Shown here one piece after another: positions 11,146 to 30,710 of a DNA stretch of 49,962 bases. Origin of the DNA: a virus; IMG/VR virus record IMGVR_UViG_3300036790_000112, positions 1 through 49,962 of that record, one strand, 5' to 3'. Below the pieces are notes generated by a model, which had not been told where the DNA came from, made no database searches, and was given only the letters and a program-made list of their open reading frames with translations. Each line of letters opens with the position of its first letter. Within the stretch, counting starts at the first letter, position 1. The position numbers and the translations under genes were made by a program.

Positions 11146-11394
11146 ATGAGCGACGAGAAGGGCGACCCGGTAGAAGTTTCCTACGACGAACCCGACGGAA
11201 TGTCGATTGGGTTTACATACGAAACTGCTCCCGGCGAGTACGTCGAGTTTGATTTTGAGGATGGCAAGGTCGGCGTTGCCGCATCTGATGATGAGTGTCC
11301 AGGACACATGTCATGGCTGTCGAAAGAGCAGGCTGTCGAGATCGCGCAGCAGATTCTTGGCTGGGCCGGGATAACCCAACCCGATGCCCTCTAA
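11146..11394 (+). CDS. Acidic hypothetical protein upstream of integrase
   Basis: 82 residues, ATG directly behind the third repeat copy (AGAGAGAGGAAAAC). Very acidic in the first 50 residues (VEVSYDEPDGMSIGF, YVEFDFEDGKVG), then a helical tail (SKEQAVEIAQQILGWAG). Its last 11 bases overlap the integrase start, so it is probably co-translated with int. Function unknown. Confidence 0.65.
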   Translation: MSDEKGDPVEVSYDEPDGMSIGFTYETAPGEYVEFDFEDGKVGVAASDDECPGHMSWLSKEQAVEIAQQILGWAGITQPDAL

Positions 11395-12670
11395 GCGTCG
11401 TTCTCCCGGTGACGGTTCTCTGTCGAGACGTAAGTCGGATGGCATCTATGTCGCTTCGGTGGAGATCCCTAGCTTGGATGGGAAGCGTCGCCAGAAACGG
11501 GCGTTTTCGAAGGACCGAAACAAAGCGATAGCGAAGCTGAATAAGCTGCGGGCCGAGGTGGCCGCCGGCCATATCGCGGTGACGGGTAAGACAACGGTGG
11601 AAGCGTGGCTTCAGCGCTGGATTGAGGACATCCGCGGCCCGAAACTCCGCCCGGGGACGAAGGACGATTACGCCCGCACCATCCGCCTGCACATCAACCC
11701 CCACATCGGCACCAAACGCCTGGACAGGTTGTCGGCGCAGGATGTGCGGGTCATGCAAACCAGCATCAAACAGTCACGCACCGCCCAGCTCGCGCATGTC
11801 ATCCTCCGTAGCGCTTTGGGGGATGCGATCAAAGAGGGCATGCTGACAAGGAATGTGGCGGAGGTAGCCGAAAAACCGAAACACGTTACGTCGCAGCGGT
11901 CGCCTCTGTCCTCCCCCGAAGCGAAACAGCTACTTAGATCAGCTATCGACTCGGGGGATCGGTGGGCCACAAGATGGGCCGCAGCCCTCCTCCTCGGCGC
12001 ACGGCAAGGCGAAATATTGGGCCTCCAATGGAACCGCCTCGACCTCGACAACGGGATAGCCGACTTCCGGTGGCAGCTCCAACAGCTCGAGCAGGCCCAC
12101 GGCTGCGGACAACGTCACAGTGACAAAACAACCCCGTCAGTTGTTGTTGCGACTGACGGGGTTGATGAGATGAACCCTCCCCGAGAGAATAGCACGTGGC
12201 CATGTGGGCGCAAGCGTCCAGGCTGGTGCCCCCAAAGGCGTTGGGACCTACCCCGCGGATTCGAACACCAAATCCTCCACCGATCCCTGGCGTTGACTGC
12301 ACCGAAGACGCGGGCCGGAACCCGGATCGTCCCCATCCCCGCCCCCCTCTGGGCGCTCCTCCAAATCCACCCCCACGGCACCGACAACCCGCATGGTTTG
12401 GTGTGGCATCACGACGACGGCCGACCCATCTCACCGCGGGATGACTACGACAACTGGCAGACAGCCCTCTCCAACGCAGGGTTGCCGCCAGCGCCGTTGC
12501 ACATAGCGAGGAACACCTGCGCGAGCCTCCTAGCCGAAGCTGGAGTGCCCGAAGACATCCGAATGGCGATACTCGGGCAGGTCTCCCTAACCGCGCACAG
12601 GAGTTACGTCTACCGCGACCAAACACAAACCCGACAAGCCATGACCGCACTAGACCAGCTTTTAGGATGA
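11384..12670 (+). CDS. int: Tyrosine integrase
   Basis: 428 residues. N-terminal arm-binding region, core-binding domain at about 70-160, catalytic domain after 175. Visible catalytic residues: Arg207 (GARQGEILGL), Lys308 (APKTRAG), His373 and Arg376 (LHIAR), Tyr408 (HRSYVY). The usual His/Trp of the LGH motif is Gln399 (ILGQ). The region 240-282 carries HGCG and CGRKRPGWCP, cysteines found in related actinophage integrases, but they are separated by about 30 extra residues that include a 13-bp inverted repeat. It recombines attP with host tRNA-Lys. Fragments of its ends recur on both sides. Confidence 0.9.
   Translation: MPSKRRSPGDGSLSRRKSDGIYVASVEIPSLDGKRRQKRAFSKDRNKAIAKLNKLRAEVAAGHIAVTGKTTVEAWLQRWIEDIRGPKLRPGTKDDYARTIRLHINPHIGTKRLDRLSAQDVRVMQTSIKQSRTAQLAHVILRSALGDAIKEGMLTRNVAEVAEKPKHVTSQRSPLSSPEAKQLLRSAIDSGDRWATRWAAALLLGARQGEILGLQWNRLDLDNGIADFRWQLQQLEQAHGCGQRHSDKTTPSVVVATDGVDEMNPPRENSTWPCGRKRPGWCPQRRWDLPRGFEHQILHRSLALTAPKTRAGTRIVPIPAPLWALLQIHPHGTDNPHGLVWHHDDGRPISPRDDYDNWQTALSNAGLPPAPLHIARNTCASLLAEAGVPEDIRMAILGQVSLTAHRSYVYRDQTQTRQAMTALDQLLG
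12129..12164. repeat. Perfect 13-bp inverted repeat inside int
   Basis: CAACCCCGTCAGT and ACTGACGGGGTTG are exact reverse complements separated by TGTTGTTGCG. It lies within the part of int (codons about 249-260) that looks like an insertion between the HGCG and CGRKRPGWCP elements. It could be a transferred hairpin element, a terminator or antiterminator structure, or a recombination or binding site. Confidence 0.7.
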
Positions 12671-13812: not shown

Positions 13813-13928
13813 AGCTAATTAGTAGACGCCTATCTGTCAATCTGCTGTGACCGTAGTCCGTTGCACCGGTTGACGTGTCCGGATTATCGTAGCGTCAGTT
13901 TACCGGATAGTTACCCGGGAGTAGGTTC

Positions 13929-14585: not shown

Positions 14586-14740
14586 GCAAGCATGGTAATG
14601 CATGGATGCGACACTAGCTAGCCACAATTTAGTGACCATACCGAAGGTATCGCAGGTCACGCGCCATACATAGAAAATACATGTGCCCGCATCGGTGCAG
14701 GGATCTCCTCAGATTTCTTTCGATTCACCTGAACACACCC

Positions 14741-14781
14741 TTGACTTACCCTTGCATATGCACAGCTGCCATGCGTATGCT
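14741..14781 (+). promoter_or_regulatory. Early promoter with candidate repressor operators
   Basis: TTGCAT (14752) and TATGCT (14776) with an 18-base spacer make a reasonable sigma70-type promoter about 40 bases before the Cro-like start; TTGACT at 14741 is an alternative -35. Two related 8-mers, GCATATGC (14754-14761) and GCGTATGC (14773-14780), overlap the promoter elements on either side of an AGCT centre and may be repressor/Cro half sites. The whole gap 14586-14820 is non-coding control DNA; on the reverse strand no clear repressor promoter was resolved. Confidence 0.5.
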
Positions 14782-14820
14782 CACCTACATACCAGCCGAC
14801 CAGCGCAAGGGTGAAACACG

Positions 14821-15057
14821 GTGGCATACATCAAGCTTCGCAAAGAAGGCTTAGCCAAACTCCGCGGACTCGCACCACAGATGAGCGACAGCCAACTGTC
14901 CCGCAAAGCCGAGATCCACGCCACCCAACTCCACCGCCTCCTCAACGAGGACTCCAACCCCGGTACACGCACCATCGCCGGCCTATGCCTTGTGTTCGGC
15001 AAAGATTGGTTTGGGGAGTTGTTTGACGTCATCTCCGATGACGAGGTCACCAAATGA
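14821..15057 (+). CDS. Cro-like HTH regulator
   Basis: 78 residues, GTG start with AAGGGTG upstream. SDSQLSRKAEIHATQLHRLL is a helix-turn-helix, followed by TRTIAGLCLVFG as a typical closing helix of small Xre/Cro proteins. It is the first gene of the rightward operon and divergent from the repressor, so it likely turns off the repressor or tunes early transcription. ATGA overlap with the next gene. Confidence 0.75.
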   Translation: MAYIKLRKEGLAKLRGLAPQMSDSQLSRKAEIHATQLHRLLNEDSNPGTRTIAGLCLVFGKDWFGELFDVISDDEVTK

Positions 15058-15248
15058 CGGACTGGTTGACCCCCAATGAGGCTGCGGCGTATATCCGCGC
15101 CAGGAATGCCCGCACCATCAAAGACGCCATCAAATCGGGCCACTTGGCCGCCTATTTCTATGGCACCGGCACCCGTGATGTCCGCATCGACCGCGAAGAC
15201 CTTGACCAGTGGATCAAATCGCGGCCGTGGGAACCGGGTTCCTCATGA
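15054..15248 (+). CDS. Excisionase-like winged-helix protein
   Basis: 64 residues. LTPNEAAAYIRARNARTIKD is the first half of a MerR/excisionase-type winged helix and the end VRIDREDLDQWIKSR is the typical wing and last helix. Such proteins bend att DNA and direct integrase to excision, or act as small regulators. It stands between Cro-like and the next conserved gene with 4-base overlaps on both sides. Confidence 0.75.
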   Translation: MTDWLTPNEAAAYIRARNARTIKDAIKSGHLAAYFYGTGTRDVRIDREDLDQWIKSRPWEPGSS

Positions 15249-15580
15249 CCGACCAGCTGCCCCTCCTGTTTTGCGGCACCACTGCTGCAGCCTTCGAAGA
15301 ATTCCACCAGCAGAACAAGCACGTGTACGCGACGTTGGTGCGGTTGGCGCGGGAATGGATCAACAGCACCGGCTCTCGGAAGGTTGGTATCAAGAGTCTC
15401 TTCGAGGTCGCGCGCTGGACACTTGCCATCGAAACGTCCGACGCCGAATACCGGCTTAACAATTCCTACACCGCGTACTACGCGCGGTTGTTGATGGCTG
15501 AAAACCCTGAACTGGACGGGCTTTTCGATTTGCGGGCGTCCAGCGCCGACAATTGGATTCTCACAAGGGAAGTCGCATGA
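15245..15580 (+). CDS. Conserved actinophage protein
   Basis: 111 residues from the ATG overlapping the Xis-like stop. FEEFHQQNKHVYATLVRLAR, KVGIKSLFEVARWTLAIET and LNNSYTAYYARLLM are strongly patterned segments I recognise from many actinobacteriophage and prophage proteins located just after the regulatory genes. All-helical and soluble. Function not established. Confidence 0.75.
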   Translation: MTDQLPLLFCGTTAAAFEEFHQQNKHVYATLVRLAREWINSTGSRKVGIKSLFEVARWTLAIETSDAEYRLNNSYTAYYARLLMAENPELDGLFDLRASSADNWILTREVA

Positions 15581-15669
15581 TCGCGGACACCGTCTTGGCT
15601 CTAGCGTTTTTCGTCATCATCGGTGCCTGCGTGGTCGGTATCGAGTGGCTCATAAGTAGCGCCAAATGA
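15577..15669 (+). CDS. 30-residue membrane peptide
   Basis: ATG overlaps the previous TGA, and its own TGA overlaps the next ATG. Almost entirely one hydrophobic helix (TVLALAFFVIIGACVVGIEW) with a short polar end. A tiny membrane protein in a fully coupled operon; possible roles include exclusion or signalling but nothing specific can be said. Confidence 0.5.
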   Translation: MIADTVLALAFFVIIGACVVGIEWLISSAK

Positions 15670-15824
15670 AGTCTCATCAGCGGTGTCACTGCTGCGGCCG
15701 CCTGTTGGTTCCCGTGAACGGACGGATGCCGCATCACCGCCGACCACCCGTGAAGCATGACCGCACTGTGTCGTTGCCGTTGACGGGCCGCGACGCCCCC
15801 TGGTGCGCAGGCGGTGCGGCGTGA
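15666..15824 (+). CDS. Small zinc-ribbon-like protein
   Basis: 52 residues. HQRCHCCGRLLVPVNGRMPH and a closing PWCAGG give a C-x-C-C...H...C pattern of a small zinc ribbon; similar small proteins are frequent in actinophage early operons. Coupled by ATGA to the previous gene and by GTGA to the next. Role unknown. Confidence 0.6.
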   Translation: MKSHQRCHCCGRLLVPVNGRMPHHRRPPVKHDRTVSLPLTGRDAPWCAGGAA

Positions 15825-16249
15825 GTAAGCACAAGTACCTGCCGTTGGCGTCGGATGACGAGCGGCACGGCACGGACGGCGGCTACACCAACCAAAAGTG
15901 CCGCTGCCAACCATGCAGGGCTGGTCACGCCAAGGCGCAACGAGAAGCTAATCGGAGACGCTCCGAGCGGCCCATTCCAGGCCACGTGCATGGATCAATA
16001 AATGGCTACCGGAACTACCTATGCAGATGCGAAAAGTGCTTAGAGGCCAAGCGAATAGTGAGCCGCGAGCAGTACCGCCGACGGTATTCGGCAGAAGCGC
16101 GCGGGTCTAAATGGTCGGTTGAGTGCAAACGAGGACACAAGCGGACTCCTGAAAACACCTATCAGCGTAAGGACGGCCGCACCATGTGCCGTCCATGCAT
16201 TCTTGACCGCCAACGCAGCTACCGCGCCATCGCAAGGGGAACGGAATGA
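15821..16249 (+). CDS. Zinc-motif protein upstream of the Mom-like gene
   Basis: 142 residues from GTG. Two copies of the HGT..GY..CRC..C motif (HGTDGGYTNQKCRCQPCRAG, residues about 17-36; HGSINGYRNYLCRCEKCLEA, about 58-77) are followed by a third cysteine unit (CKRGHKRTPENTY ... MCRPCILDRQ). Basic linkers suggest nucleic-acid binding. In phage Mu the zinc-finger protein Com lies just upstream of mom and activates its translation; the similar position here is suggestive only. It ends 27 bases before the Mom-like GTG. Confidence 0.7.
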   Translation: MSKHKYLPLASDDERHGTDGGYTNQKCRCQPCRAGHAKAQREANRRRSERPIPGHVHGSINGYRNYLCRCEKCLEAKRIVSREQYRRRYSAEARGSKWSVECKRGHKRTPENTYQRKDGRTMCRPCILDRQRSYRAIARGTE

Positions 16250-16276
16250 CTGGCGTATCGGATTGGAGTCCCAATA

Positions 16277-16969
16277 GTGACCCTCCCTTTACCGCTGGAC
16301 CTCCCGGATTCGTCGGAGCTGGTCGATACGATCTCGGGTGTGATCACGGGGCTGCGGGTACAGCAGGTGAGCAGCCAGACCGCCAATACCGCTGTGGTCC
16401 GTCACCACTACCTGCACAGGCGCACGTCGATCAGCTTTGCCTACGGACTGTACAAGGGGCCGAAGATGCTTGGGGTGGTGACGTTCGGAACCCCGCCGTC
16501 GCGGCATCTGCAAATGTCGGCGTGCCCGTCCGACCCGTCGAAGGTGATCGAGTTGAATCGACTGTGGGTGGACGACGTGCTGCCCCACAACACCGAGTCA
16601 TGGTTTGTGTCGCGGGCGCTGAAGATGTTGCCTCCGAGAATAGTTGTGTCCTACGCAGATCCTCGGTTCGGCCACTACGGCTATATCTATCGGGCGTTGA
16701 ACTTCCGGTATGCGGGCTGGACGGATATGGAGCGCAAAACACCGCGCTACGACTACATCCCAATCGACACGTCGAAGCACACGCGCGACGCATTCAGGAA
16801 TGGCATCGCCTACCGGGTGCGCCGCGTGGCCAAGGTCAAGTACTGGACCGTTACGGGGCCGAATCGCAACGAGCGGCGGCACCTAGAGAAACTGTCAGGC
16901 TGGCCGCGCTTCGACTGGAAGCGGCTTCCACCACCAGCACCGGATCAGGTCAGCGCCGCGGAGGCTTAG
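16277..16969 (+). CDS. mom: Mom-like DNA modification protein
   Basis: 230 residues, GTG start. Mom-family proteins (GNAT-like fold) modify adenine in phage DNA (methylcarbamoyl adenine in Mu) and protect it from restriction. Matching landmarks: VRHHYLHRR, FAYGLYKGPKMLGVVTFGTP, VIELNRLWVDDVLPHNTESW, and above all VVSYADPRFGHYGYIYRALN followed by FRYAGWT. Length is near that of Mu Mom (about 240 residues). It is the only recognised DNA-modifying enzyme in the genome. A longer forward ORF from 16246 in another frame is a shadow. Confidence 0.8.
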   Translation: MTLPLPLDLPDSSELVDTISGVITGLRVQQVSSQTANTAVVRHHYLHRRTSISFAYGLYKGPKMLGVVTFGTPPSRHLQMSACPSDPSKVIELNRLWVDDVLPHNTESWFVSRALKMLPPRIVVSYADPRFGHYGYIYRALNFRYAGWTDMERKTPRYDYIPIDTSKHTRDAFRNGIAYRVRRVAKVKYWTVTGPNRNERRHLEKLSGWPRFDWKRLPPPAPDQVSAAEA

Positions 16970-17000
16970 CGCGACCGGCAATCTCGCAAGAGGTTGCCGC

Positions 17001-17273
17001 GTGAGCATCTATTACGGTGAGTGCCCGCCGTTGTCGGCCAGTGATTTCCCCATGTCTGCCCCCGGCGGTGTTGATGCGTCTTCCCCGCCGCAACCACCGC
17101 TGGGGGCCCAAACCACCGAAGAAGCCTTCGATTCACTGCGCAAAGAAAACGCGGCATTGAAGGCAGACAACATTCGGCTGGTGTTGGAACTCGCTGCCGC
17201 CCAAGCACAACGGGACACCGCCAACGCTCAAGCTACGCATTACCGCACCTACTACACCCGCACAGGTTGGTGA
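17001..17273 (+). CDS. Coiled-coil hypothetical protein
   Basis: 90 residues from GTG after AAGAGGTTGCC. The N-terminus is proline-rich and disordered (PGGVDASSPPQPPLG). Residues about 40-80 form a heptad-like helix (LRKENAALKADNIRLVLELA), a dimeric coiled coil. Role unknown; possibly scaffolding or regulation. Confidence 0.65.
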   Translation: MSIYYGECPPLSASDFPMSAPGGVDASSPPQPPLGAQTTEEAFDSLRKENAALKADNIRLVLELAAAQAQRDTANAQATHYRTYYTRTGW

Positions 17274-17277
17274 AACA

Positions 17278-17667
17278 GTGAAATCCTTTTGGCAGTCGAT
17301 CGCCTGGGTAGCGGAGACAGTCCTCAACCATTGTTGGCCGTTGGAGACGGAACCGTCCATGGCGGATGTGGAGCGGGAACAAGTCCTCTATGGGGATGGG
17401 GCTCACGATGTGTGGCCCGATAAAGAAGCTGAGGATGAAGTGGGTACGGGTGGGCGCGTCGGACCCGATGATGTGTGGCCGGAAACCCCCGACCCGATGG
17501 ACCACCTCATCGACCTGCTTGAGCAAGTTCGGGACCTTTTGTCTTCCGCTGTATCCCCCGACGCAGCGGAACGCCCCGGATCGGTTGTGCCCCCGACCGA
17601 TCCGGGGCACCCAAAACCACCACCGGACCGATCTTGGATCGAGTTCACCAAAACGCCCTGGAAGTAA
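17278..17667 (+). CDS. Hypothetical acidic protein with DRSWIEF tail
   Basis: 129 residues, GTG start 4 bases after the previous stop. The N-terminus is amphipathic and aromatic (MKSFWQSIAWVAETVLNHCW), then acidic, with two HDVWPD/DDVWPE repeats, a short helix (LIDLLEQVRDLLSSA) and a Pro-rich end with DRSWIEFTKTPWK. The same DRSWIEF tag occurs near the start of the protein at 9069. A strong hairpin follows the gene. No family recognised. Confidence 0.6.
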   Translation: MKSFWQSIAWVAETVLNHCWPLETEPSMADVEREQVLYGDGAHDVWPDKEAEDEVGTGGRVGPDDVWPETPDPMDHLIDLLEQVRDLLSSAVSPDAAERPGSVVPPTDPGHPKPPPDRSWIEFTKTPWK

Positions 17668-17673
17668 AGAAAC

Positions 17674-17701
17674 GGCCCGCACCGGATCAGCGGTACGGGC
17701 C
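17674..17701 (+). terminator. Hairpin in the early operon (possible terminator or processing site)
   Basis: GGCCCGCACCG-GATCAG-CGGTACGGGCC: an 11-bp stem with one C-A mismatch. It lies between the gene ending at 17667 and the ribosome site of the next gene. No U-run follows, so termination would be partial at best; it may be an mRNA stabiliser or an attenuator. Confidence 0.5.
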
Positions 17702-17720
17702 AGACAAAGAGAGGTAGTCA

Positions 17721-17891
17721 ATGTCAGATCAAACGGTAACACACGAAACCTTCCCAGATAGGGAGGTGGACAGTCAGGCGGAGTTCGATGCCGACCTCGA
17801 CTACCTCAAAGGTTTAGCGTCGGCGATCTTCGAACACGCCACACCCCAAGACCTGCTTCACATCGCAGCATTCGACAAGGACCAAGCGTGA
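17721..17891 (+). CDS. Small acidic hypothetical protein
   Basis: 56 residues; AAAGAGAGGTAGTCA before the ATG is a good ribosome site. Acidic and helical (EVDSQAEFDADLDYLKGLAS). Its TGA overlaps the GTG of the secreted protein gene. Function unknown. Confidence 0.6.
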   Translation: MSDQTVTHETFPDREVDSQAEFDADLDYLKGLASAIFEHATPQDLLHIAAFDKDQA

Positions 17892-18190
17892 CCCGATACA
17901 TCCTGTGGGGTGTCGCCTGCGGACTGGTCATCGGCGGCTCAGGATGGCTATCCGCGAAAGCCGACGCCGCCACCACCCAAACCCCGTCCATCTGTGCCGC
18001 TTTCGACGCATCCCCCACGTTCGCTTCGGTCAACCACGTGATGCAAACCCTCCTCGACAACGGACACAACCTCCAGCAGGCATCCCAACTGGTCGTGCAA
18101 ACAGTCGAAACCCGCTGCCCCCAGCATCTTTCCCTGTTGGAGGCGTACGTGGATGCCGGCGTATTCCTATACCCGGAGCTAACACGATGA
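17888..18190 (+). CDS. Secreted DUF732-like small protein
   Basis: 100 residues from GTG. A signal peptide is clear (YILWGVACGLVIGGSGWLSA, cleavage near KADA-ATT). The mature part has two cysteines (SICAAFDASPTF and ETRCPQHL) and helical segments resembling the small secreted DUF732 proteins that are abundant in mycobacteria. It may change the lysogen's surface, act in exclusion, or be acquired host DNA. Assignment to DUF732 is by motif memory only. Confidence 0.6.
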   Translation: MTRYILWGVACGLVIGGSGWLSAKADAATTQTPSICAAFDASPTFASVNHVMQTLLDNGHNLQQASQLVVQTVETRCPQHLSLLEAYVDAGVFLYPELTR

Positions 18191-18447
18191 AGGGCGCAAT
18201 CATCAAGCGCCGCCGCGCTGTGCTGAGGCCGATCGTCAATTGGTGCAATCGGAACCTTAGTCAGAGAAATCTGGACTGGATAGCGGACCACTCTTTCGGA
18301 TGGGTAAAGATGGTTCCCCGTCCCGTCCGAATCCCCGGATCACCGTATGTAATCGCGGGCGTGAAGGTGATGGATTGGGTTCGCCTGGATGAGCAGCCCG
18401 AGGGAGAACCGGCGTTCGGCGGGTTCGGTAAAGGCGGTCCGTGGTGA
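18187..18447 (+). CDS. Basic hypothetical protein
   Basis: 86 residues, ATG overlapping the previous TGA. Very basic start (MKGAIIKRRRAVLRP), then WCNRNLSQRNLDWIADHSFG and a Gly-rich end (FGGFGKGGPW). Possibly nucleic-acid binding. Ends in a GTGA overlap with the next gene. Confidence 0.6.
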   Translation: MKGAIIKRRRAVLRPIVNWCNRNLSQRNLDWIADHSFGWVKMVPRPVRIPGSPYVIAGVKVMDWVRLDEQPEGEPAFGGFGKGGPW

Positions 18448-18587
18448 GGTCGCTGCATGATCGGATGTGTGATGCTGCCGAGGTTTTAGAAGAACTATCC
18501 GCACTGTACGGCTACAAGTTCCCCAACGAGGCCGGATGGTCGGCCACCGAACTACGCCACGAAGCCCAACACGTGGGGGACCGATGA
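18444..18587 (+). CDS. Small helical actinophage protein
   Basis: 47 residues from GTG. LHDRMCDAAEVLEELSALYG then WSATELRHEAQHV is a two-helix pattern frequent among actinophage small proteins. 4-base overlaps on both sides. Function unknown. Confidence 0.6.
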   Translation: MRSLHDRMCDAAEVLEELSALYGYKFPNEAGWSATELRHEAQHVGDR

Positions 18588-19048
18588 GCACCTACGAATC
18601 GTGGATGGATCGTGCGGCGTGCGCGGGTTCTCCAGTGGACTTCTATCCTGACGAACGCTCCAACCCTGCGCCCGCGTTGGAGATCTGCCGCTCCTGCCCA
18701 GTGACACGGGAATGCCTCGACTACGCGCGAGAGCATAAGCAGGAAGGCATCTGGGGAGGATTTACGGAGAATCAGCGCAAGGGACGTAAGAGGGTACGCA
18801 CCCTCCAGCCGTGCGGAACTGTGGCAGCCTTCCAACGCCACGTACGCCGCCGTGAAACCCCTTGCGAGGCATGCCGGGAGGCGAAGAACCAATCCCAGAA
18901 GCAGTCCGCTCCGCAGCATCTTGTGCCGTGCGGCACTTACGGGGCGTGGCGGCGGCATCTCAGGCGCGGCGAGCAGCCATGCAAGGCATGCCGTGATGAG
19001 CGCAACAGGTTACAGCGGGAACGACGATCAGCCGGGAACGCGTCATGA
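18584..19048 (+). CDS. whiB: WhiB-family protein fused to duplicated Cys motifs
   Basis: 154 residues. Residues 1-70 are WhiB-like: Cys13, then CRSCPVTREC (Cys35, Cys38, Cys44) as the iron-sulfur ligands, and GIWGG at 55-59. Phage WhiB proteins repress or redirect host sigma-factor-dependent transcription. Residues about 75-154 add two copies of PCGT..A..RH.RR.E.PC.ACR, each with three cysteines, likely zinc sites. This C-terminal extension is not part of standard WhiB proteins and suggests an extra nucleic-acid contact. Coupled at both ends by ATGA. Confidence 0.8.
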   Translation: MSTYESWMDRAACAGSPVDFYPDERSNPAPALEICRSCPVTRECLDYAREHKQEGIWGGFTENQRKGRKRVRTLQPCGTVAAFQRHVRRRETPCEACREAKNQSQKQSAPQHLVPCGTYGAWRRHLRRGEQPCKACRDERNRLQRERRSAGNAS

Positions 19049-19215
19049 AAGACACCAGGCTTAATGAGATTGCAGCACTTGTGGATGATGCTCGCTGCCT
19101 CATCGCAGATATGAAGGATGAAGGGGTCCTAGCTGAGGACCGCATCGCACTGGACCGTATCCGGGGCAGCCTCAACGACGCCATCCGCAGAACAAACAAC
19201 CTGAAAGACGCCTGA
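19045..19215 (+). CDS. Small helical hypothetical protein
   Basis: 56 residues, ATG overlapping the WhiB stop. Charged helices (RLNEIAALVDDARCLIADMK, DRIALDRIRGSLNDAIRR). It overlaps the next ATG by one base. Probably part of the DNA-transaction set that follows; no family recognised. Confidence 0.6.
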   Translation: MKDTRLNEIAALVDDARCLIADMKDEGVLAEDRIALDRIRGSLNDAIRRTNNLKDA

Positions 19216-19685
19216 TGGACGACCGGATGAGGGATGCAGCAGCACGCGCGATCGTGTTCCAGGTGCTCGAGCAGGCCGCTAAAGCCCGCAAGGATGAGGC
19301 GAAAGCTGAATTGGCCCAGATGGAGCCTGGTGACACCATCGCCGGCAAGTGGGATGGCCAGCTCCTCGGCAAAGCCACAATGACCACGGGTCGCACCAAA
19401 CTCATCGTCACCGACGAACAGAAGCTGTTGGAGTGGTTGCAGTACAACCAGCCCGACGAGATCGTCATGTCCATCAACCCCGCATACCTTCGTTTGCTTG
19501 AGTCGCGGGCGAAAGAAGTCGGGGCGGTCATCGACACCCAGGGGGAGTTGATCCCTGGTCTCGAGTTGGTAAGCGGCGATCCGTATGTCTCGGTACGCAA
19601 GGAGAAGGACGCGCCATTCGTTGTTGCGCAACTTCTTTCCGGTGGTCGGGTGTCCCTCGATGGCATAAGGGAGTTGGAGCAGTAA
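19215..19685 (+). CDS. Conserved protein paired with the annealing protein
   Basis: 156 residues. Helical N-terminus (AIVFQVLEQAAKARKDEAKA), then GKATMTTGRTKLIVTDEQKL, LQYNQPDEIVMSINPAYLRL and a GDPYVSVRK end. This pattern occurs in many actinophages beside Erf/RecT-like genes, and here the next gene is Erf/Sak-like. It may assist homologous recombination or protect ends, as Gam-like proteins do, but sequence alone does not show it. Confidence 0.7.
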   Translation: MDDRMRDAAARAIVFQVLEQAAKARKDEAKAELAQMEPGDTIAGKWDGQLLGKATMTTGRTKLIVTDEQKLLEWLQYNQPDEIVMSINPAYLRLLESRAKEVGAVIDTQGELIPGLELVSGDPYVSVRKEKDAPFVVAQLLSGGRVSLDGIRELEQ

Positions 19686-20080
19686 TGGGCTTCGATCTGG
19701 ATTCGTACAACACGGTCCCCGAGCGGATTGCGGAGTTCCGCGACAAGTACCCGGACGGCTCGCTGCAGCAAGTGAAGTACGAGCTGCTGGAAGTCCCGAT
19801 CTATACGAAGGACAAAGAGACCGGGATTGTTTCACAAACCGCCGTCCGCGTTTATCTCGCATACACGGCAGCCGCCTACCGGAATGCCGACGACATGAAG
19901 CCCGGCATCGGGACCGCGTGGGAGCCTATCCCTGGTCCTACACAGTTCACCCGTGACAGTGAGATGCAAAACGCTGAAACCGCGGCGTGGGGCAGGGCAA
20001 TCGTGGCCACACTCGCGGCAGATACCAAGAAGGGCATCGCTTCCCGTGAAGATGTCCAGTCACGCAAGGGGGACTGGTGA
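19685..20080 (+). CDS. Erf/Sak-like single-strand annealing protein (putative)
   Basis: 131 residues, TAATG overlap with the partner gene. TVPERIAEFRDKYPDGSLQQ, PGIGTAWEPIPGPTQFTRDS and MQNAETAAWGRAIVATLAAD with KKGIASREDV are hallmarks of the short Erf/Sak-type single-strand annealing family in actinophages. It would anneal single strands in recombination-dependent repair or genome circularisation. No phage exonuclease was recognised beside it, so host nucleases may supply ends. Confidence 0.6.
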   Translation: MGFDLDSYNTVPERIAEFRDKYPDGSLQQVKYELLEVPIYTKDKETGIVSQTAVRVYLAYTAAAYRNADDMKPGIGTAWEPIPGPTQFTRDSEMQNAETAAWGRAIVATLAADTKKGIASREDVQSRKGDW

Positions 20081-20271
20081 TGTGGTGTGAGTGCACGTGC
20101 GGTCATCACCGCAGTAACCATCCCTGGCTCGGCCACGGGCCTTACGGCTCGACATCCGGTTACGGGGGATGCGATCACTGCCTCCAGTGCGACAAGCCCT
20201 CCCGTGAGCATGTGTTCGTTAGCCACCAGTTCAAACGCTGCGACTGCCACATGTACCAGGAGACAGCATGA
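20077..20271 (+). CDS. Cys/His-rich zinc protein
   Basis: 64 residues from GTG (or the ATG directly after). Eight cysteines and many histidines: CECTCGHHRSNH, CDHCLQCDKPSREH, CDCHMY. A zinc-binding small protein, perhaps nucleic-acid binding. 4-base overlaps on both sides. No known family. Confidence 0.6.
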   Translation: MMWCECTCGHHRSNHPWLGHGPYGSTSGYGGCDHCLQCDKPSREHVFVSHQFKRCDCHMYQETA

Positions 20272-20600
20272 CCGGGTTCCCGCCGGGGGTGCGCGAGATT
20301 TTGAGTGAGCGCAGCGCCGGAATGTGCGAGTTGTGCGGCATTGATCGAGCCGTCGAGGCACACCATCGCCGTCCCAGAGGCGCTGGTGGCTCACGCAGAG
20401 ACACCACAAACACGCCGTCAAATGCGTTGGTGCTGTGCAGCTCCTGCCATCGGATGGCTGAAAGCTACCGGGCAGTGGCGATCCTGATGGGCTGGATTGT
20501 CGCCCAGTCCGAAGGCAATCCGGCCCGTGTTCCCGTGCTGTATCGCCGGCGATGGATGTACCTAGACGACTGCGGGAACCTCTTGGAGGCGGCTGCGTGA
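20268..20600 (+). CDS. HNH endonuclease
   Basis: 110 residues, ATG overlapping the previous TGA. CELCGIDRAVEAHHRRPRGA, SNALVLCSSCHRMAES give the two CxxC pairs and the HH...N...H triad of an HNH nuclease. Its tail (WIVAQSEGNPARVPVLYRRR) matches the recombination-associated HNH proteins of actinophages. Likely a DNA-processing nuclease of this operon rather than a stray homing enzyme. Confidence 0.85.
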   Translation: MTGFPPGVREILSERSAGMCELCGIDRAVEAHHRRPRGAGGSRRDTTNTPSNALVLCSSCHRMAESYRAVAILMGWIVAQSEGNPARVPVLYRRRWMYLDDCGNLLEAAA

Positions 20601-20782
20601 ACATCTTCAGGCAGTTGGGTGACCGTAACTCTGTGATGGTGACAGACGCCCTCACACGTACCTGCACGATCTGCAAAGCAGCCCCACGGGTTGATTGTCG
20701 GCATCCGTGGGAGACGTCTGAACCGTTGGGTCGGATAGTGCATTTGGCTCGGGCACAACACCACATGGACAGGGGCAAGTGA
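20597..20782 (+). CDS. Small Cys-pair protein
   Basis: 61 residues from GTG overlapping the HNH stop. RTCTICKAAPRVDCRHPWET has a CxxC and an additional Cys/His, and a closing helix ends RAQHHMDRGK. A small zinc-type protein common between actinophage nucleases. Function unknown. Confidence 0.6.
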   Translation: MNIFRQLGDRNSVMVTDALTRTCTICKAAPRVDCRHPWETSEPLGRIVHLARAQHHMDRGK

Positions 20783-21363
20783 TGGCGGTTTCAAAGCGGT
20801 TGCGGTTTGAGATATTCCGCCGCGACAACCACACCTGTCGATACTGCGGACGGACAGCTCCCCAGTGGCCTATGCAGGTCGACCACGTCACCCCGACAGC
20901 ACTGGGAGGAAGCGACGAGCCGACGAATCTTGTTACCGCGTGCGTAGATTGCAACGCCGGAAAGACGTCAGTGCCGCCTGGTGCTCCGCTGGTGGATGAT
21001 GTGTCCGCTGATGCGCTGCGGTGGTCTAAGGCTATGCAGCACGTGGCCCAGATCCGGTTGGCGGAGATGCGGGACCGCGAGGAGACGCTGGCTTGGTTTG
21101 CTGGTCTTTGGGCCGATTGGAATTACGGCGGCAAGACCAACCCCAAGCCAATCCCTGCGCCAGAGGGGTTCGAGGGAATCTTCAAGTTCCTCGCGGCTGG
21201 TCTGACACGGGAAGAGATCCAGCACCTGCTCAACGTGGCCATGAGAGCGACACACATTCCGCCGCAGGCCACGTGGAAGTACTTCTGTGGCTGCTGCTGG
21301 AAACGCATACGTGACAACGCTGATATGGCAGCGGCGATCCTCACCGCGGAGGGGGACGACTAG
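20779..21363 (+). CDS. HNH endonuclease with C-terminal helical domain
   Basis: 194 residues from GTG (or the ATG after it). RFEIFRRDNHTCRYCGRTAP, QVDHVTPTALGGSDEPTNLV and CVDCNAGKTS form a canonical HNH module (CRYCG, DHV, N, CVDCN) in residues 8-65. The remaining 130 residues are helical, with KYFCGCCWKRI. It overlaps the next GTG by one base. May nick or cut DNA for replication or repair initiation. Confidence 0.85.
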   Translation: MMAVSKRLRFEIFRRDNHTCRYCGRTAPQWPMQVDHVTPTALGGSDEPTNLVTACVDCNAGKTSVPPGAPLVDDVSADALRWSKAMQHVAQIRLAEMRDREETLAWFAGLWADWNYGGKTNPKPIPAPEGFEGIFKFLAAGLTREEIQHLLNVAMRATHIPPQATWKYFCGCCWKRIRDNADMAAAILTAEGDD

Positions 21364-22064
21364 TGGCGTGGTTCATGGTCGATGACCAACTCGCCCTCCA
21401 TAAAAAGGTGTGCGAAGCAGGTAACGCAGCGATGGGGCTATGGGTCCGGGCCGGCGCATGGTCTATGCAGAACCTCACAGAAGGGTTCGTCTCAACGTCA
21501 GCTGTCCGAGCGCTAGGAACATCAGGCCAAGCCAAAGCTCTTGTCTTATCTAAATTGTGGGTCAAGGTGGAAGGCGGCTACCAGTTCCATGAGTGGGGGA
21601 CGAGACAACTATCTGCTGAGCAGATTGCCGAGCGTAGGCGTAAGCGCGCGGAAGCTGGAAGCAAGGGCGGCAGGGCATCCGGACAAAGCAGAAACGAAGC
21701 AAAAGGCGAAGCAAAAGGCGAAGCAAATGCTTCAGCACGGCCGGATCAAAATAGAACCCCTTCCCTTGTCCCTGTCCCTGTGGTGGTTGATTTGGGAGGG
21801 GATGTTACGCAAGTAGACGCGGCCGAACCCCCTCCCCGCTGCCCAAAGCATTTGAATGACGCCGATCCACCGAACTGTGTGCCTTGTCGGGATGCCCGTC
21901 TGGCGAACGCATCCTGGCATGCAGGGGAATTGGATCGACGTCGGCAAGCCCGCGCTGCGGAGAGGGCGCGCGCTGATGCCTGCCCGGTTTGTGAGGGCAC
22001 GCACTGGATTCCGAACACGTATCCCGTCCAGCGCTGTGACCACCAGGAGCAAGCCCATGCCTGA
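21363..22064 (+). CDS. Replication-initiator-like HTH protein
   Basis: 233 residues from GTG. WFMVDDQLALHKKVCEAGNA, GLWVRAGAWSMQNLTEGFVS and LVLSKLWVKVEGGYQFHEW form the winged-helix start typical of phage replication-initiator/DnaD-like proteins. A linker carries a short tandem repeat (EAKGEAKGEA). The C-terminal part has two CxxC pairs (CVPCRDAR, CPVCEGTHW), a zinc site. It is the best candidate for the replication protein. No helicase, primase or polymerase was found. Confidence 0.65.
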   Translation: MAWFMVDDQLALHKKVCEAGNAAMGLWVRAGAWSMQNLTEGFVSTSAVRALGTSGQAKALVLSKLWVKVEGGYQFHEWGTRQLSAEQIAERRRKRAEAGSKGGRASGQSRNEAKGEAKGEANASARPDQNRTPSLVPVPVVVDLGGDVTQVDAAEPPPRCPKHLNDADPPNCVPCRDARLANASWHAGELDRRRQARAAERARADACPVCEGTHWIPNTYPVQRCDHQEQAHA

Positions 22065-22251
22065 ACTTCGCGTCACTCACGGCGAATACGGGTTCGCTTG
22101 GGGCCCGGTTTATGTGCAGCGGACAACCGAAATTGATGGCCGCGTGGTGCTTACTGTCACAACCGACACGGGACAGACCATTGACATTTACGTCTCCCGC
22201 ACCGGCCGCAGCTTGCGCGTCTTCAAAAAAGGCCGCGGAGAACTCACATGA
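22057..22251 (+). CDS. Small beta-rich hypothetical protein
   Basis: 64 residues; the ATG lies within the last codons of the previous gene and follows AGGAGCAAGCCC. Beta-rich (GPVYVQRTTEIDGRVVLTVT, IDIYVSRTGRSLRVFKKG). ATGA overlap with the next gene. Family not recognised. Confidence 0.65.
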   Translation: MPELRVTHGEYGFAWGPVYVQRTTEIDGRVVLTVTTDTGQTIDIYVSRTGRSLRVFKKGRGELT

Positions 22252-22448
22252 GCTACGCCCACGACGAAGACCTCAACGAGCTGCCGCCGTATCCAGTGCA
22301 GTGGGAAGCGCATCAGCGGGTGGCCGCGTATTGGCATGCCCTGAACTTCACCAGCTTTCCCGGAACCACGCAGGGTTGGTATGCGGTGTGGAAGTCGTTG
22401 GAGCGGGAGCACAACCGACGGCACCCGAGCACGGAGGAGACAGCGTGA
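22248..22448 (+). CDS. Small Trp-rich hypothetical protein
   Basis: 66 residues. Many aromatic residues (YPVQWEAHQRVAAYWHALNF, GWYAVWKSLEREHNRRH). ATGA and GTGA overlaps on the two sides show coupled translation. Function unknown. Confidence 0.65.
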   Translation: MSYAHDEDLNELPPYPVQWEAHQRVAAYWHALNFTSFPGTTQGWYAVWKSLEREHNRRHPSTEETA

Positions 22449-22660
22449 CTCAGATCCGCGCTAAGGCGCGTACTAACACGAAACCTTTGACCCGCACACC
22501 CTGCAACGGCCACGGCACCCCGCGCCCCTATCAACGCATCTGGGCGTACCGGCATACGAAAGTGTCACAGGCTGATCTGCCGATGATCGCTAAAGCCTTG
22601 GGAATCCGTGAAGACGCGGTCATAGACACTGCAGTGAGGCTAAGTGGGGGAGAGCCGTGA
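22445..22660 (+). CDS. HTH-like small DNA-binding protein
   Basis: 71 residues from GTG. A basic start (QIRAKARTNTKPLTR) is followed by a possible helix-turn-helix: KVSQADLPMIAKALGIREDA. Could regulate this operon or assist the initiator. GTGA overlaps on both sides. Confidence 0.6.
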   Translation: MTQIRAKARTNTKPLTRTPCNGHGTPRPYQRIWAYRHTKVSQADLPMIAKALGIREDAVIDTAVRLSGGEP

Positions 22661-23022
22661 ACGACATTAGACAGCGCCTCGCAGACGCACTTCGGGAACA
22701 CCTATTGTGGCCCGGTACGCACTGTCGCTGCGATCACCAACTGGACGGCTCCGGTGGACCCGGTGAGCGCCGATCCCGTTACCAAACCCATCTCGCTGAG
22801 GTGTTGTTGTCGTTGCCTGGTATCGCCATCGTGGAACTACCGGATCGTCTTCCCGGATACACAGAAGGTGAAATGCCTCGCTGGGAAACCGCCGAAATCG
22901 TTGTGCAAACGGACCATCACGACTGGGTCCGACTAAACAGTGAAGCATTGGAGCCATGGGAGGCGCGCGCACTCGCTGTACGCCTCCTGGCTGCCGCTAA
23001 CGCAGTCGAGGCCGTCCAGTGA
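22657..23022 (+). CDS. Hypothetical protein with single Cys/His cluster
   Basis: 121 residues from GTG. RQRLADALREHLLWPGTHCR with CDHQLDGSG suggests a small metal-binding head. Later helices (HLAEVLLSLPGIAIVELPDR; LEPWEARALAVRLLAAANAV) complete a compact fold. I recognise similar openings in actinophage small proteins, without known function. Confidence 0.65.
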   Translation: MNDIRQRLADALREHLLWPGTHCRCDHQLDGSGGPGERRSRYQTHLAEVLLSLPGIAIVELPDRLPGYTEGEMPRWETAEIVVQTDHHDWVRLNSEALEPWEARALAVRLLAAANAVEAVQ

Positions 23023-23144
23023 GGGACCGCACCCGTAAACCCGCCACACAACCTCCTGAGACACAGGAACCACCACCTGAGTTGGACTGGGACGCAGCCG
23101 TAGCCCGGTTGGAGAAGATGCTCAGCGACATGGAGGACCAATGA
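23019..23144 (+). CDS. 41-residue Pro-rich/helical protein
   Basis: GTG overlapping the previous TGA; 41 residues with a proline-rich basic start (RKPATQPPETQEPPPELDWD) and an acidic helix (AVARLEKMLSDMEDQ). Coupled by ATGA to the next gene. Unknown. Confidence 0.55.
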   Translation: MRDRTRKPATQPPETQEPPPELDWDAAVARLEKMLSDMEDQ

Positions 23145-23380
23145 GCAACATTCAGCAGCGGATAGCGCAGATCATCAGACAGGTCGACGGCGATCACACG
23201 ATGGGTGCTGCAGCTCTCGCCGAAGCGTTGGTATCCGAACTAGGACTCACCCGCGTGGAAGGAGTTTCGTACGGTGTCCGCGATGTATTCGAAGTACCGC
23301 GTCCGGATGACTATGGGCCACGGTGGTCAAAGTTCTCCCGTTATGTCACTGAGTGGGTGCCCGCAATGGAGGACGAATGA
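23141..23380 (+). CDS. Hypothetical protein
   Basis: 79 residues, ATG overlapping the previous stop. IQQRIAQIIRQVDGDHTMGA then ALAEALVSELGL gives an N-terminal helical pair, then aromatic segments (DDYGPRWSKFSRYVTEWV). The start resembles that of the gene at 22657, so the two may be distant paralogues. Unknown role. Confidence 0.6.
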   Translation: MSNIQQRIAQIIRQVDGDHTMGAAALAEALVSELGLTRVEGVSYGVRDVFEVPRPDDYGPRWSKFSRYVTEWVPAMEDE

Positions 23381-23589
23381 ACGTGCTCGCTGAGTTGGTC
23401 GCAATCCGCAAATCCCGCGGACTCACCCTCAAAGACGTCGCCAAACTCATCCAAATCACCCCAGCCGCGATCTGCCTCTTCGAACACTCACACCGCTACC
23501 GCCGCAACCCAAACCTATCCACACTCGTCCGGTACGCGGACGCTGTAGGCGCGGAAATCCATGCCACACCAACCCCGGAGGACGCATGA
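23377..23589 (+). CDS. Xre-type HTH regulator
   Basis: 70 residues. I chose the ATG overlapping the previous stop (MNVLAELVAIRKSRGLTLKD). SRGLTLKDVAKLIQITPAAI followed by CLFEHSHRYRRNPNLSTLVR is a standard Xre/Cro helix-turn-helix, and YADAVGAEI closes the fold. Late position in the early operon suggests control of the next phase of transcription. Confidence 0.75.
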   Translation: MNVLAELVAIRKSRGLTLKDVAKLIQITPAAICLFEHSHRYRRNPNLSTLVRYADAVGAEIHATPTPEDA

Positions 23590-24374
23590 GCGAGTGTGCC
23601 AACTGCAGGCGACAATCGGATCTGTTCGGTTGCAAGCGCTGCCAGGACACATTGCGCGGATGGTTCTATGACACGCCGGGGTGGATCACTGCACTGCTGG
23701 AGGCGGTGCATGGAGAAACCCGCCTAGGTGAATCAGTGCGGCGCTCCAGTGAGAAGACGAGCCCGATGCTCTGCAACCTGGACGCTTCAGCCCAACTGGC
23801 TTATGCGCGATCGGTGCTAAACGAGTGGACGCGCGATCTGTGCGAGACCCGCGGATTGCAAACGCCGGATCTTGTTGATGGAGACCTCGCCATCTGGTTG
23901 GCACACAACGTCACAGCTATCGCCTGCGACCAAGGGTTCGGGGTTTGTTTCCTTGAGGTCAAACAGATGCTCGAAGACATCGAACACTTAGTGGACAGGC
24001 CCAAATCCCCAGCCCTCAACACATCGTGTCCAGCTATGCTGACTGTCGGTTACGGCGAGCAAGTGTGCGGCGCATATCTCACCCTTCTGCCCGAAGAGGA
24101 TTCAGTTCGGTGTCACAATTGCAAGGCCACCCACCAAGTCCATGAGTTGACCGAACTGCGCCTCGATGCAGTGCCTAATGATCTGCTGTTCACTGCCACT
24201 GAAATACTGGACATCATGGCCATGATCCGCCGTCCCATCCCCGAATCAACGTGGAGGCGGTGGCGCCAACTCAAACAGGTCATGCCAGCCGGTGAACTGT
24301 ATGGCGAACCCGCGTACCGCATCCAGGACGTTCGGGACTTCCGTAAAAAATGGACACGCGACAAAGCCAGTTAA
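23586..24374 (+). CDS. Zinc-ribbon and winged-helix DNA-binding protein
   Basis: 262 residues. Two cysteine clusters: CANCRRQSDLFGCKRCQD at the N-terminus and CPAMLTVGYGEQVCGAYLTL with CHNCKATHQ at about 150-185. The last third has a MerR/excisionase-like winged helix: TATEILDIMAMIRRPIPEST, WRRWRQLKQV, YRIQDVRDFRKKW. This class is common at the end of actinophage early operons. It is the last gene before the terminator and could switch on later genes. Confidence 0.75.
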   Translation: MSECANCRRQSDLFGCKRCQDTLRGWFYDTPGWITALLEAVHGETRLGESVRRSSEKTSPMLCNLDASAQLAYARSVLNEWTRDLCETRGLQTPDLVDGDLAIWLAHNVTAIACDQGFGVCFLEVKQMLEDIEHLVDRPKSPALNTSCPAMLTVGYGEQVCGAYLTLLPEEDSVRCHNCKATHQVHELTELRLDAVPNDLLFTATEILDIMAMIRRPIPESTWRRWRQLKQVMPAGELYGEPAYRIQDVRDFRKKWTRDKAS

Positions 24375-28052: not shown

Positions 28053-28091
28053 TCGAACAACCGTGCGACCATGGCACGCACACGCGTTCGA
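28053..28091. promoter_or_regulatory. SOS/LexA-like box pair A
   Basis: TCGAACAACCGTGCGA (28053-28068) matches the mycobacterial LexA box TCGAAC-N4-GTTCGA at 11 of 12 positions. ACGCACACGCGTTCGA (28076-28091) matches at 10 of 12. Their centres are 23 bp apart, the same spacing as in pair B. A further half site TCGAAC lies at 28114. Confidence 0.55.
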
Positions 28092-28154
28092 TACCAAGAG
28101 GGTTGGCCATCCATCGAACACCTGTGTACAATAGCGACCCGATCATGATGACCA

Positions 28155-28232
28155 CACCATAACCGCAGGTCAGCGCATACGCTATTGCACACGGTGACCA
28201 TCTATCACCATAACCGCAGGTCAGACCTGCGG
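28155..28232. repeat. 19-bp direct repeat and 19-bp palindrome in the late control region
   Basis: CACCATAACCGCAGGTCAG occurs exactly at 28155-28173 and 28206-28224. The second copy continues into a palindrome, CCGCAGGTC-A-GACCTGCGG (28214-28232). Two identical long sites in a gap with no gene point to a regulator or to a nick/packaging site. There is no U-run after the palindrome. The rest of 28022-28441 holds the SOS-like boxes, a T-rich tract near 28300, and the arms CGCGTT/AACGCG (from 28319). Confidence 0.65.
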
Positions 28233-28361
28233 GGGCTATTAAATCCCTCCAACCATGCACCCACCACGACTCATCCAGTCCGGCGTAAATACCCACAAGT
28301 TTTGAAGCTTTTTGGTTTTCGCGTTTTCTGTCCAATAACGCGGGGTGCCGATGGCACGGCT

Positions 28362-28400
28362 TCGAATGGGTGTTCGACTCTAAATCGAACGCTTGTTCGC
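28362..28400. promoter_or_regulatory. SOS/LexA-like box pair B upstream of the late operon
   Basis: TCGAATGGGTGTTCGA (28362-28377) and TCGAACGCTTGTTCGC (28385-28400) each match TCGAAC-N4-GTTCGA at 11 of 12 positions; the second keeps the CGAAC-N4-GTTCG core intact. Centres are 23 bp apart. They lie 44-82 bases before the first late gene, with an AT-rich TGCATATTCATT further down that may hold the -10. A LexA-like dimer here would block the late promoter. Confidence 0.6.
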
Positions 28401-28443: not shown

Positions 28444-28596
28444 ATGCCAGCCAAGACGTCGTCTGATCTTTCTGCTGCTGAGCAGCATGTTGCTGAGGCT
28501 CACCGGTTGGTGGCTCGGGGTGGGGATCATGTGCAGATCGCGGTGCAGCATTTGGCGATTGCGCTGAAAGACCTGCTTAAAGAGCTAAATGGGTAA
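28444..28596 (+). CDS. Small helical protein, first gene of the late operon
   Basis: 50 residues; CCAGGAGAGAATC is a strong ribosome site and excludes an in-frame ATG 51 bases upstream. SSDLSAAEQHVAEAHRLVAR and QIAVQHLAIALKDLLKELNG are two amphipathic helices. Small helical proteins just before terS are common in actinophages. It overlaps terS by 8 bases. Role unknown. Confidence 0.65.
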   Translation: MPAKTSSDLSAAEQHVAEAHRLVARGGDHVQIAVQHLAIALKDLLKELNG

Positions 28597-29044
28597 GCGT
28601 GGCCCTGCTCCGCGGCCGACGCATTTGCGGGCTTTGGAGGGTGTTGAGGAGGGCCGGCTGAATCGGGATGAGCCGATCCCTGCGGCTGGCGCGGTGGTGC
28701 CACCAGCGGATTTGCCGCACTCGGCGCAGGAGATTTGGAACCGTCTAGCCCCAGACATGATTCAGAAAAGGGTTCTGACCTCCTGGGATGTGGATGAGTT
28801 CGCGAATGCGTGCCGCATACAGGCGTTGTTGAACCGTGCGCTTGTTGAGGCGGAGAGCAATCCGCTTATCGCTGCGGGGTCGAACGACAACCTCATCCAA
28901 AACCCGGCGATCCGGATCGTGACCTCGCTTGAAGCGTCGCTGCGGTCGATCTGGTCACGGTTTGGTTTGACTCCGGGGGATAGGGCTCAGTTGAAGGTGG
29001 ATGATGGTGGCTCAGCCTCCGGCGACGAAGCCCTCATCGTTTGA
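28589..29044 (+). CDS. terS: Terminase small subunit (P27-type)
   Basis: 151 residues. GKRGPAPRPTHLRALEG, EIWNRLAPDMIQKRVLTSWD, and a late RSIWSRFGLTPGDRAQL segment match P27-family small terminases, which recognise phage DNA for packaging and stimulate the large subunit. The 3' end overlaps terL by 44 bases in another frame. Confidence 0.88.
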   Translation: MGKRGPAPRPTHLRALEGVEEGRLNRDEPIPAAGAVVPPADLPHSAQEIWNRLAPDMIQKRVLTSWDVDEFANACRIQALLNRALVEAESNPLIAAGSNDNLIQNPAIRIVTSLEASLRSIWSRFGLTPGDRAQLKVDDGGSASGDEALIV

Positions 29045-30710
29045 GCCTTGCGGCTGGATAAACCCGCTTGACCAGCAGGAATGCGCCGAAACTGGTGATC
29101 ATTTCTGTGTTCCACGAGCCGATCATGTGTGCCAGTTCTTCGAACGCCTCCTCATGCACACCAAGGGCACTCAGTATCGGAAGCGGTTCCTGCTGAGGGT
29201 TTGGCAGTCCGAGGAGATCCTTCGGCCGTTGTTTGGTCGGGTGCGGTGGTCGGATGAGCATGCGTGTTATGTGCGGCAGTACCGCATCGCCTATATCGAG
29301 ATGGCCCGCAAAAACGGCAAAAGCCAGATTCTGGCTGGCATCATGCTATACCTGTTGTTCGCTGATGGTGAGCATTCCGCCGAACTGACGTCGGTGGCGA
29401 AGGACCGCGAGCAAGCGTCAGCCGTGTTTGATGTGGCGTCGCAGATGGTTTTGCTTCAGCCCTTGTTGTCGAAGCACGCCAAAGTCATTCCATCCACTAA
29501 GAGGATTGTGCGGCCGAAAACGAACGGTGTGTACAAGGTTAAAGCCGCTGATGGTGGGCGGTTGTTGGGTGGTAACCCGTCGGGTGTGGCGGCGGATGAG
29601 ATTTTGGCGTGGCCCACCCCGTCGGGGGCGGAAGTCTGGAACGCACTGCGATCCGGTATGGGGTCGATGGACCGCAAACAGCCGTTGATGGTGGCCGCTA
29701 CCACAGCACCGCCGGCCGATGAATCGTTCGGCGCTGATCTACACAGGCGGATGGTGCGGGTTGTTGAGGACCCGGAGCGGGAACCGCACGTGTTCGCGTG
29801 GATCAAAAACCTTGCGCTTGATGCCGATATTTACGACGAACGCAGCTGGCATGTCCCCAACCCAGCTTTGGGGGATTTCCTGTCGCTTGAGGAAATGCGT
29901 TCGATGGCGCTGGAGGCCCACAACGATCCCGTCGCGGAACTGTCGTTCCGCAGGTTTCAGCTCAACCAAACCCTCGGTAGTGAAGTTCATTGGATGCCCA
30001 TGCATCTGTGGGATGAATGCCAAGGAGCCCTGTACCAAAACGCCTCAGCAACTTTGGATGCGTTTGCGGGCCGGGATTGCTGGATGGGCATCGACCTCGC
30101 CGCCCGCCAAGACTTGACCTCTATTTGTTATCTGTTTCCGGACGGGGAAGAGATTGACCTGCTGTGGCGGCACTGGATGCCCCGCGAAGCCTACGAGAGA
30201 CTGAACAAGGCGAACAGCGGGAAATTCGCTCAGTGGGTCAAACAGGGTTGGCTGCAGGTCACCGAAGGTGACGTCCTGGACTTCAATGCCGTCTATGACG
30301 CGATTGATTCGGATGCGCAACGTTTCACCATTCTCGGGGCGGACGCTGACCGGTGGTCATCCGACCCTGTCCTGCAGGAAATCGGCTACCGCACCTACAT
30401 CAACGACGTGATGGCCTACTCCAACGACTTCACCCACATGTCTGACGGTATGCACCGACTGTTCGAACTCGTCCTCGAGGGGAAAGTCCGTCATCACGGA
30501 AACCCAGTCGCCAGGTGGTGCTTCGACTGCTGCGAAGCCCGACTGCATACATCCGACCCGGATCTGGTGATGCCGGCCAAGATAAAACGCGACCAGTCAT
30601 CCAACCGGATTGACGCAGTTCCCTCAGGGATCATGGCCGTCAATGCGTGGTGGACCCGCGGCCGGGATGTCAACAGCGTTTACAACAACCAGCCGATTCT
30701 ATTCGCCTAG
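29001..30710 (+). CDS. terL: Terminase large subunit
   Basis: 569 residues. An ATPase domain comes first: Walker-A-like ARKNGKSQ near 102-109, Walker B with GVAADE (Asp199-Glu200). A RNase H-like nuclease follows, beginning WMGIDLAARQDLTSICYLFP near 370, with further acidic residues in LGADADRWSSDP. The enzyme pumps DNA into proheads and cuts it. Start at ATGATG inside terS; length is normal for the family. Confidence 0.93.
   Translation: MMVAQPPATKPSSFEPCGWINPLDQQECAETGDHFCVPRADHVCQFFERLLMHTKGTQYRKRFLLRVWQSEEILRPLFGRVRWSDEHACYVRQYRIAYIEMARKNGKSQILAGIMLYLLFADGEHSAELTSVAKDREQASAVFDVASQMVLLQPLLSKHAKVIPSTKRIVRPKTNGVYKVKAADGGRLLGGNPSGVAADEILAWPTPSGAEVWNALRSGMGSMDRKQPLMVAATTAPPADESFGADLHRRMVRVVEDPEREPHVFAWIKNLALDADIYDERSWHVPNPALGDFLSLEEMRSMALEAHNDPVAELSFRRFQLNQTLGSEVHWMPMHLWDECQGALYQNASATLDAFAGRDCWMGIDLAARQDLTSICYLFPDGEEIDLLWRHWMPREAYERLNKANSGKFAQWVKQGWLQVTEGDVLDFNAVYDAIDSDAQRFTILGADADRWSSDPVLQEIGYRTYINDVMAYSNDFTHMSDGMHRLFELVLEGKVRHHGNPVARWCFDCCEARLHTSDPDLVMPAKIKRDQSSNRIDAVPSGIMAVNAWWTRGRDVNSVYNNQPILFA

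Follow-up and report, generated by a model that had tools for sequence, protein, structure and literature searches.

The late operon of this temperate phage appears to be preceded by five LexA-type binding sites that lie on both sides of the probable cos site, and we consider it likely that these boxes are operators through which host LexA directly represses the late genes until DNA damage releases them. Comparative sequence analysis supports the presence of the sites, the LexA-type profile that they share, their retention in relatives and their place around cos and before terS; from these we infer LexA occupancy, use of the promoter, repression and induction. All coordinates refer to the window, the whole stretch of 49,962 nucleotides that was analysed.

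The original prediction had listed four 16-nucleotide matches to TCGAAC-N4-GTTCGA, and each was recovered, with 11 of the 12 fixed positions matched at 28053, 28362 and 28385 and 10 of 12 at 28076, as was the 23-bp spacing within both pairs (28053/28076 and 28362/28385). The search of the whole window with up to two mismatches that had been proposed as a check revealed no equal density elsewhere: 11 such sites were found in total, against 2.33 +/- 1.46 (maximum 7) in dinucleotide shuffles, and the three sites with at most one mismatch all fall inside 348 bp, where a first-order Markov model of the window leads one to expect 0.17 per 50 kb. The remaining seven sites with up to two mismatches are dispersed over the window. 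A fifth box (box 3), which fails the palindrome search, was overlooked in the original list because its second half reads GTGTAC; its counterpart in the relative G001 is TCGAACGTGTGTTTGT.

Table 1. Predicted LexA boxes, cos-region elements and relevant genes in the window.
Feature	Position	Strand	Details
Tyrosine integrase	11384..12670	+	Indicates a temperate phage
Probable immunity repressor, 140 aa	14163..14585	-	HTH only, no S24 self-cleavage domain
LexA box 1 (pair 1), TCGAACAACCGTGCGA	28053..28068	+	1 mismatch; matrix rank 15 of all window positions
LexA box 2 (pair 1), TCGAACGCGTGTGCGT on minus strand	28076..28091	-	Strong half at right; matrix rank 2; 23 bp from box 1
Promoter-like TGGCCA-17-TACAAT	28104..28132	+	Reads rightwards over cos toward terS
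LexA box 3, TCGAACACCTGTGTAC	28113..28128	+	Spacer up to -10 of promoter-like sequence; matrix rank 3
TGTNNAATARSG motif, copy 1	28125..28136	+	Candidate packaging or other cos-region site
TGTNNAATARSG motif, copy 2, inverted	28180..28191	-	Exact match
Inferred cos overhang TCATCCA	28271..28277		Between right end ...CACGAC (28270) and left end GTCCGGCG... (28278)
TGTNNAATARSG motif, copy 3	28329..28340	+	Same stretch in several relatives
LexA box 4 (pair 2), TCGAACACCCATTCGA on minus strand	28362..28377	-	Matrix rank 4
LexA box 5 (pair 2), TCGAACGCTTGTTCGC	28385..28400	+	Matrix rank 1; 23 bp from box 4
terS, small terminase (Terminase_4, PF05119)	28589..29044	+	Profile match; opens late operon
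terL, large terminase (PF03354/PF20441)	29004..30710	+	Profile match; start of late operon

The position of the boxes relative to cos emerged from the genome ends. A 127-bp direct terminal repeat (window positions 1-127 and 49836-49962) indicates that the record is circularly permuted and probably a complete genome, so that the box region, internal here, corresponds to both termini of the linear relatives. The right ends of the linear relatives G001 (48,654 bp) and G006 (46,612 bp) stop at the base equivalent to window position 28270 (the CGAC position), and the left ends of G001, G006 and L006 begin at the base equivalent to 28278, 9 bp before AAATACCC/GAATG. As these shared ends agree, we take them to be physical ends rather than assembly breaks, and the seven bases TCATCCA absent from them are probably a 3' cos overhang. 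The linear relatives thus end exactly between the box pairs, which would therefore flank cos, an arrangement that the original prediction had missed: boxes 1 to 3 fall on the right end and boxes 4 and 5 on the left, and G001 and G006 carry boxes at each genome end. Just upstream of cos there is also an exact 19-bp direct repeat, CACCATAACCGCAGGTCAG (28155-28173 and 28206-28224, 51 bp apart), partly kept in G001 and L014 as ATAACCGCAGGTCAG and variants.

The assignment of the five sites as LexA boxes preceding the late operon is well supported by their sequences, given their fit to a published site profile, their conservation in relatives, their independence from TerS and the same placement in an unrelated phage. 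A weight matrix was derived exclusively from the SOS boxes that a Streptomyces venezuelae LexA study lists in its Table 1 (PMC9380542) and run over both strands of the whole 50-kb window, where its four top scores fell on the boxes at 28385, 28076, 28113 and 28362, in a phage whose host is placed only as actinobacterial. The same matrix applied to G001 gave its best seven scores to five sites, two of which score on both strands, and all five lie at the genome ends. The published ChIP-seq consensus for LexA, tCGAAC-N4-GNNCGa, is closely fitted by four of the five boxes, with box 3 deviating at GTGTAC; in the box at 28362 an A replaces the first G of the weak half, a substitution that the validated recA box TCGAACATCCATTC also has. 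In the 41 sites collected, or 38 if the unverified contig L112 is left out, the strong half is nearly always TCGAAC, a strictness that is partly by construction since the search required one good TCGAAC half, and the other half is GTTCGA, GTGCGA, GTACGA, GATCGA or ATTCGA. The central four bases, which played no part in finding these sites, read R-N-N-Y in almost all of them, with a purine at position 7 in 40 of 41 and a pyrimidine at position 10 in 37 of 41. Of the earlier description of a mycobacterial LexA box, the LexA part is thus borne out by the matrix and by conservation, and the mycobacterial part is better broadened to actinobacterial, the host range suggested by a WhiB gene and by nearest terminases found in mycobacteriophages.

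Conservation of the pairs in related phages had been named as a further check, and both the set of boxes and a pairing at 21-23 bp do recur: pairs with this spacing are found around cos or before terS in G001, G006, L005, L006, L009 and L014, and at exactly 23 bp in L009 and L014. Denser box arrays occupy the region in L007 and L008, where the last box abuts a ribosome-binding site and not a recognisable promoter. Lilac, a cluster E mycobacteriophage among the next nearest terminase relatives, has no box with at most one mismatch and none at its ends. The annotated phage collection contained no near-DNA match to the window, and a TerL search of bacterial genomes for a close prophage returned only distant Bacteroidales and Rickettsiales terminases. 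Contig L112, which has a similar left end and boxes and no terminase match, was not counted as a relative.

Box pairs extend well beyond this group, as pairs within 30 bp were present in 72 viral contigs compared with 6 for a reversed control pattern, a set that was collected by box search and therefore shows breadth, not frequency near terminases. In L104, an unrelated phage of 40.7 kb with a phrog_2 terminase, the only two boxes with up to two mismatches (2062-2110, 33 bp apart) directly precede the terS-like and terL genes. Other unrelated phages carry pairs away from terminase genes. Gordonia phage Marietta and its relatives have intergenic clusters between the divergent genes 77 and 78 (L059 4668-4728), the Crossroads group of Mycobacterium cluster-L phages has another intergenic cluster (L065 6050-6097), and a pair-specific scan revealed clusters in phage L048 and contig L049, which we do not assign to cos. 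A pattern match in L047 was dismissed as chance, lying inside a tRNA-like stretch. Several loci show a regular organization of their own: L074 (1205-1367), L088, L095, L100 and L125 carry arrays of up to seven LexA-like boxes in 21-bp steps, that of L074 just before a DnaB-like helicase gene, and the lower-GC phages L072, L096, L102, L103 and L106 have a pair, spaced by 26 or 38 bp, that always lies 4.0-4.5 kb upstream of terL. Spacings of 16, 21, 26 and 32 bp between neighbouring boxes, in steps of about half a helical turn, are favoured among loci L056-L126; the cos family uses 21-23 bp.

Within the cos and box region of the window, the promoter scan returned two overlapping predictions where 0.6 were expected, and TGGCCA-17-TACAAT is the only promoter-like sequence. 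Box 3 is predicted to overlap it, and pair 2 has no evident adjoining promoter. TACAAT and the box directly before it recur at the right end of G001; the promoter-like sequence is confined to the window and G001, and its -35 element is weak. A scan of the region for a terminator returned none. The TGTNNAATARSG motif was also considered as a -10 element and rejected, as one copy is inverted and position 2 is not A in most copies.

Because packaging signals lie at cos, the flanking position of the boxes could also mean that they are cosB-like recognition elements bound by TerS on both sides of cos, their likeness to LexA sites being coincidental. TerS homologues below about 47% identity, taken from a TerS search, have no clustered boxes, as this would predict. 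The boxes nevertheless do not follow TerS among closer relatives: L013, whose TerS is 62% identical to that of the window, has no box within about 1.1 kb upstream of terS, whereas L009 (50%) and L014 (55%) have pairs. Thus the boxes adjoin cos but their presence does not co-evolve with TerS identity. They also fit a matrix derived from host genes and form pairs in unrelated phages away from terminase genes. A better candidate for packaging or terminase binding is the TGTNNAATARSG motif, since its only three exact matches in the window all lie around cos and it is shared by several relatives at the corresponding place, among them the boxless L013. Recognition of the boxes by TerS is therefore, in our estimation, decidedly unlikely.

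A reader encoded by the phage itself, which the original prediction had allowed for as a regulator using the same site, seems unlikely, if slightly less so. It might be the 14163-14585 repressor, a Cro-like or excisionase-like HTH protein, or a small LexA-like activator resembling gp6 of the Bacillus thuringiensis phage GIL01, which activation of the GIL01 late promoter P3 requires (PMC6182141). The window does encode several small HTH genes, along with a WhiB protein and an HNH nuclease. However, the LexA winged-helix domain (PF01726) gave no match at E<=1 in G000-G004, a search that very small or diverged proteins could escape, so a small gp6-like activator keeps some plausibility. Moreover, the interval from 10161 to 23959, which includes the immunity region where a repressor would be expected to bind, contains no box with up to two mismatches, and the same boxes in unrelated phages indicate a shared host reader. 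LexA might instead, or in addition to acting on transcription, block terminase cutting and packaging of an unexcised or undamaged genome from both sides of cos, the least probable of these readings. The placement of the pairs is compatible with such a role, as is the retention of pair 1 in L014, where the adjoining promoter-like sequence is absent. Yet some 180 bp separate pair 1 from cos, too great a distance for simple blocking, the literature searched yielded no precedent, and the pair in L104 is positioned with respect to its terminase genes rather than to a mapped cos. It is likewise very unlikely that LexA around cos couples the SOS state to late transcription and packaging together, such that ends would be cut and virions filled only once LexA is gone.

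If host LexA represses the late operon directly, it would do so as follows. In an undamaged lysogen, LexA dimers would occupy pair 1, box 3 where it overlaps the promoter-like sequence (28104-28132), and pair 2 immediately ahead of the first late genes, and would thereby hold off transcription of the terminase, head and tail operon across the joined cos; a transcript from the promoter-like sequence would run over the joined cos into terS. DNA damage would produce RecA filaments and LexA self-cleavage, so that one event would both free the late operon and induce the host SOS genes. The prophage may sense damage through LexA: no S24 peptidase or self-cleaving repressor was found anywhere in the phage, and with neither that domain nor a LexA winged helix detected, RecA-assisted cleavage of the phage repressor is unlikely, and LexA becomes a plausible sensor of damage. 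Because the 10161-23959 interval is free of boxes, LexA alone would not be expected to trigger excision or replication.

Parts of this arrangement are familiar from other phages. The late promoter of lambda lies upstream of cos and its transcript crosses the joined cos into the terminase genes, as proposed here, but that promoter is governed by Q antitermination and not by LexA. In coliphage 186, with tum, and in Gifsy- and Fels-type phages, LexA-controlled antirepressors provide an SOS input even though the repressor is not self-cleaving; there LexA acts on a small antirepressor gene, whereas here it would apparently act on the late operon itself. Host LexA boxes have been reported at predicted prophage genes of S. 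venezuelae, where vnz_21525, vnz_21545 and vnz_21550 have LexA-bound boxes and are strongly induced by mitomycin C; those boxes precede a tail-fibre gene and hypothetical genes of a host prophage cluster, and the portion of the report available describes no paired arrangement around cos (PMC9380542). The closest parallel in these respects is GIL01, whose P3 promoter is repressed by host LexA together with gp7 at tandem boxes separated by about two helical turns (PMC6182141). Both are temperate phages with LexA boxes in tandem at the late operon and with a role for host LexA in sensing damage (PMC6182141, PMC4551915), a proposed one in the present phage, where the boxes stand 23 bp apart before terS and terL. 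GIL01, however, is linear and extrachromosomal and lacks a dedicated repressor, while the present phage is tailed and encodes an integrase and a repressor; its boxes lie on either side of the inferred cos, and searches revealed no LexA homologue to match the GIL01 activator gp6. The proposed operation is GIL01-like, but the two systems differ. The literature searched, of which coverage was incomplete, contained no description of LexA boxes at the cos of a phage or at a late promoter of an actinophage.

When DNA damage induces a tailed temperate phage, the usual explanation is RecA-stimulated loss of the phage repressor or a LexA-controlled antirepressor. In this group of soil actinophages, judging from sequence, the late operon and cos region appear instead to answer directly to host LexA, with a similar box placement before the terminase genes of the unrelated phage L104. 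This offers a testable account of how phages without a self-cleaving repressor could sense the SOS response. The findings suggest that actinobacterial phages place their genes under direct LexA control more often than the well-studied GIL01 would lead one to expect, and, if the LexA reading is true, virus production could be unlocked directly by damage to the host's DNA.
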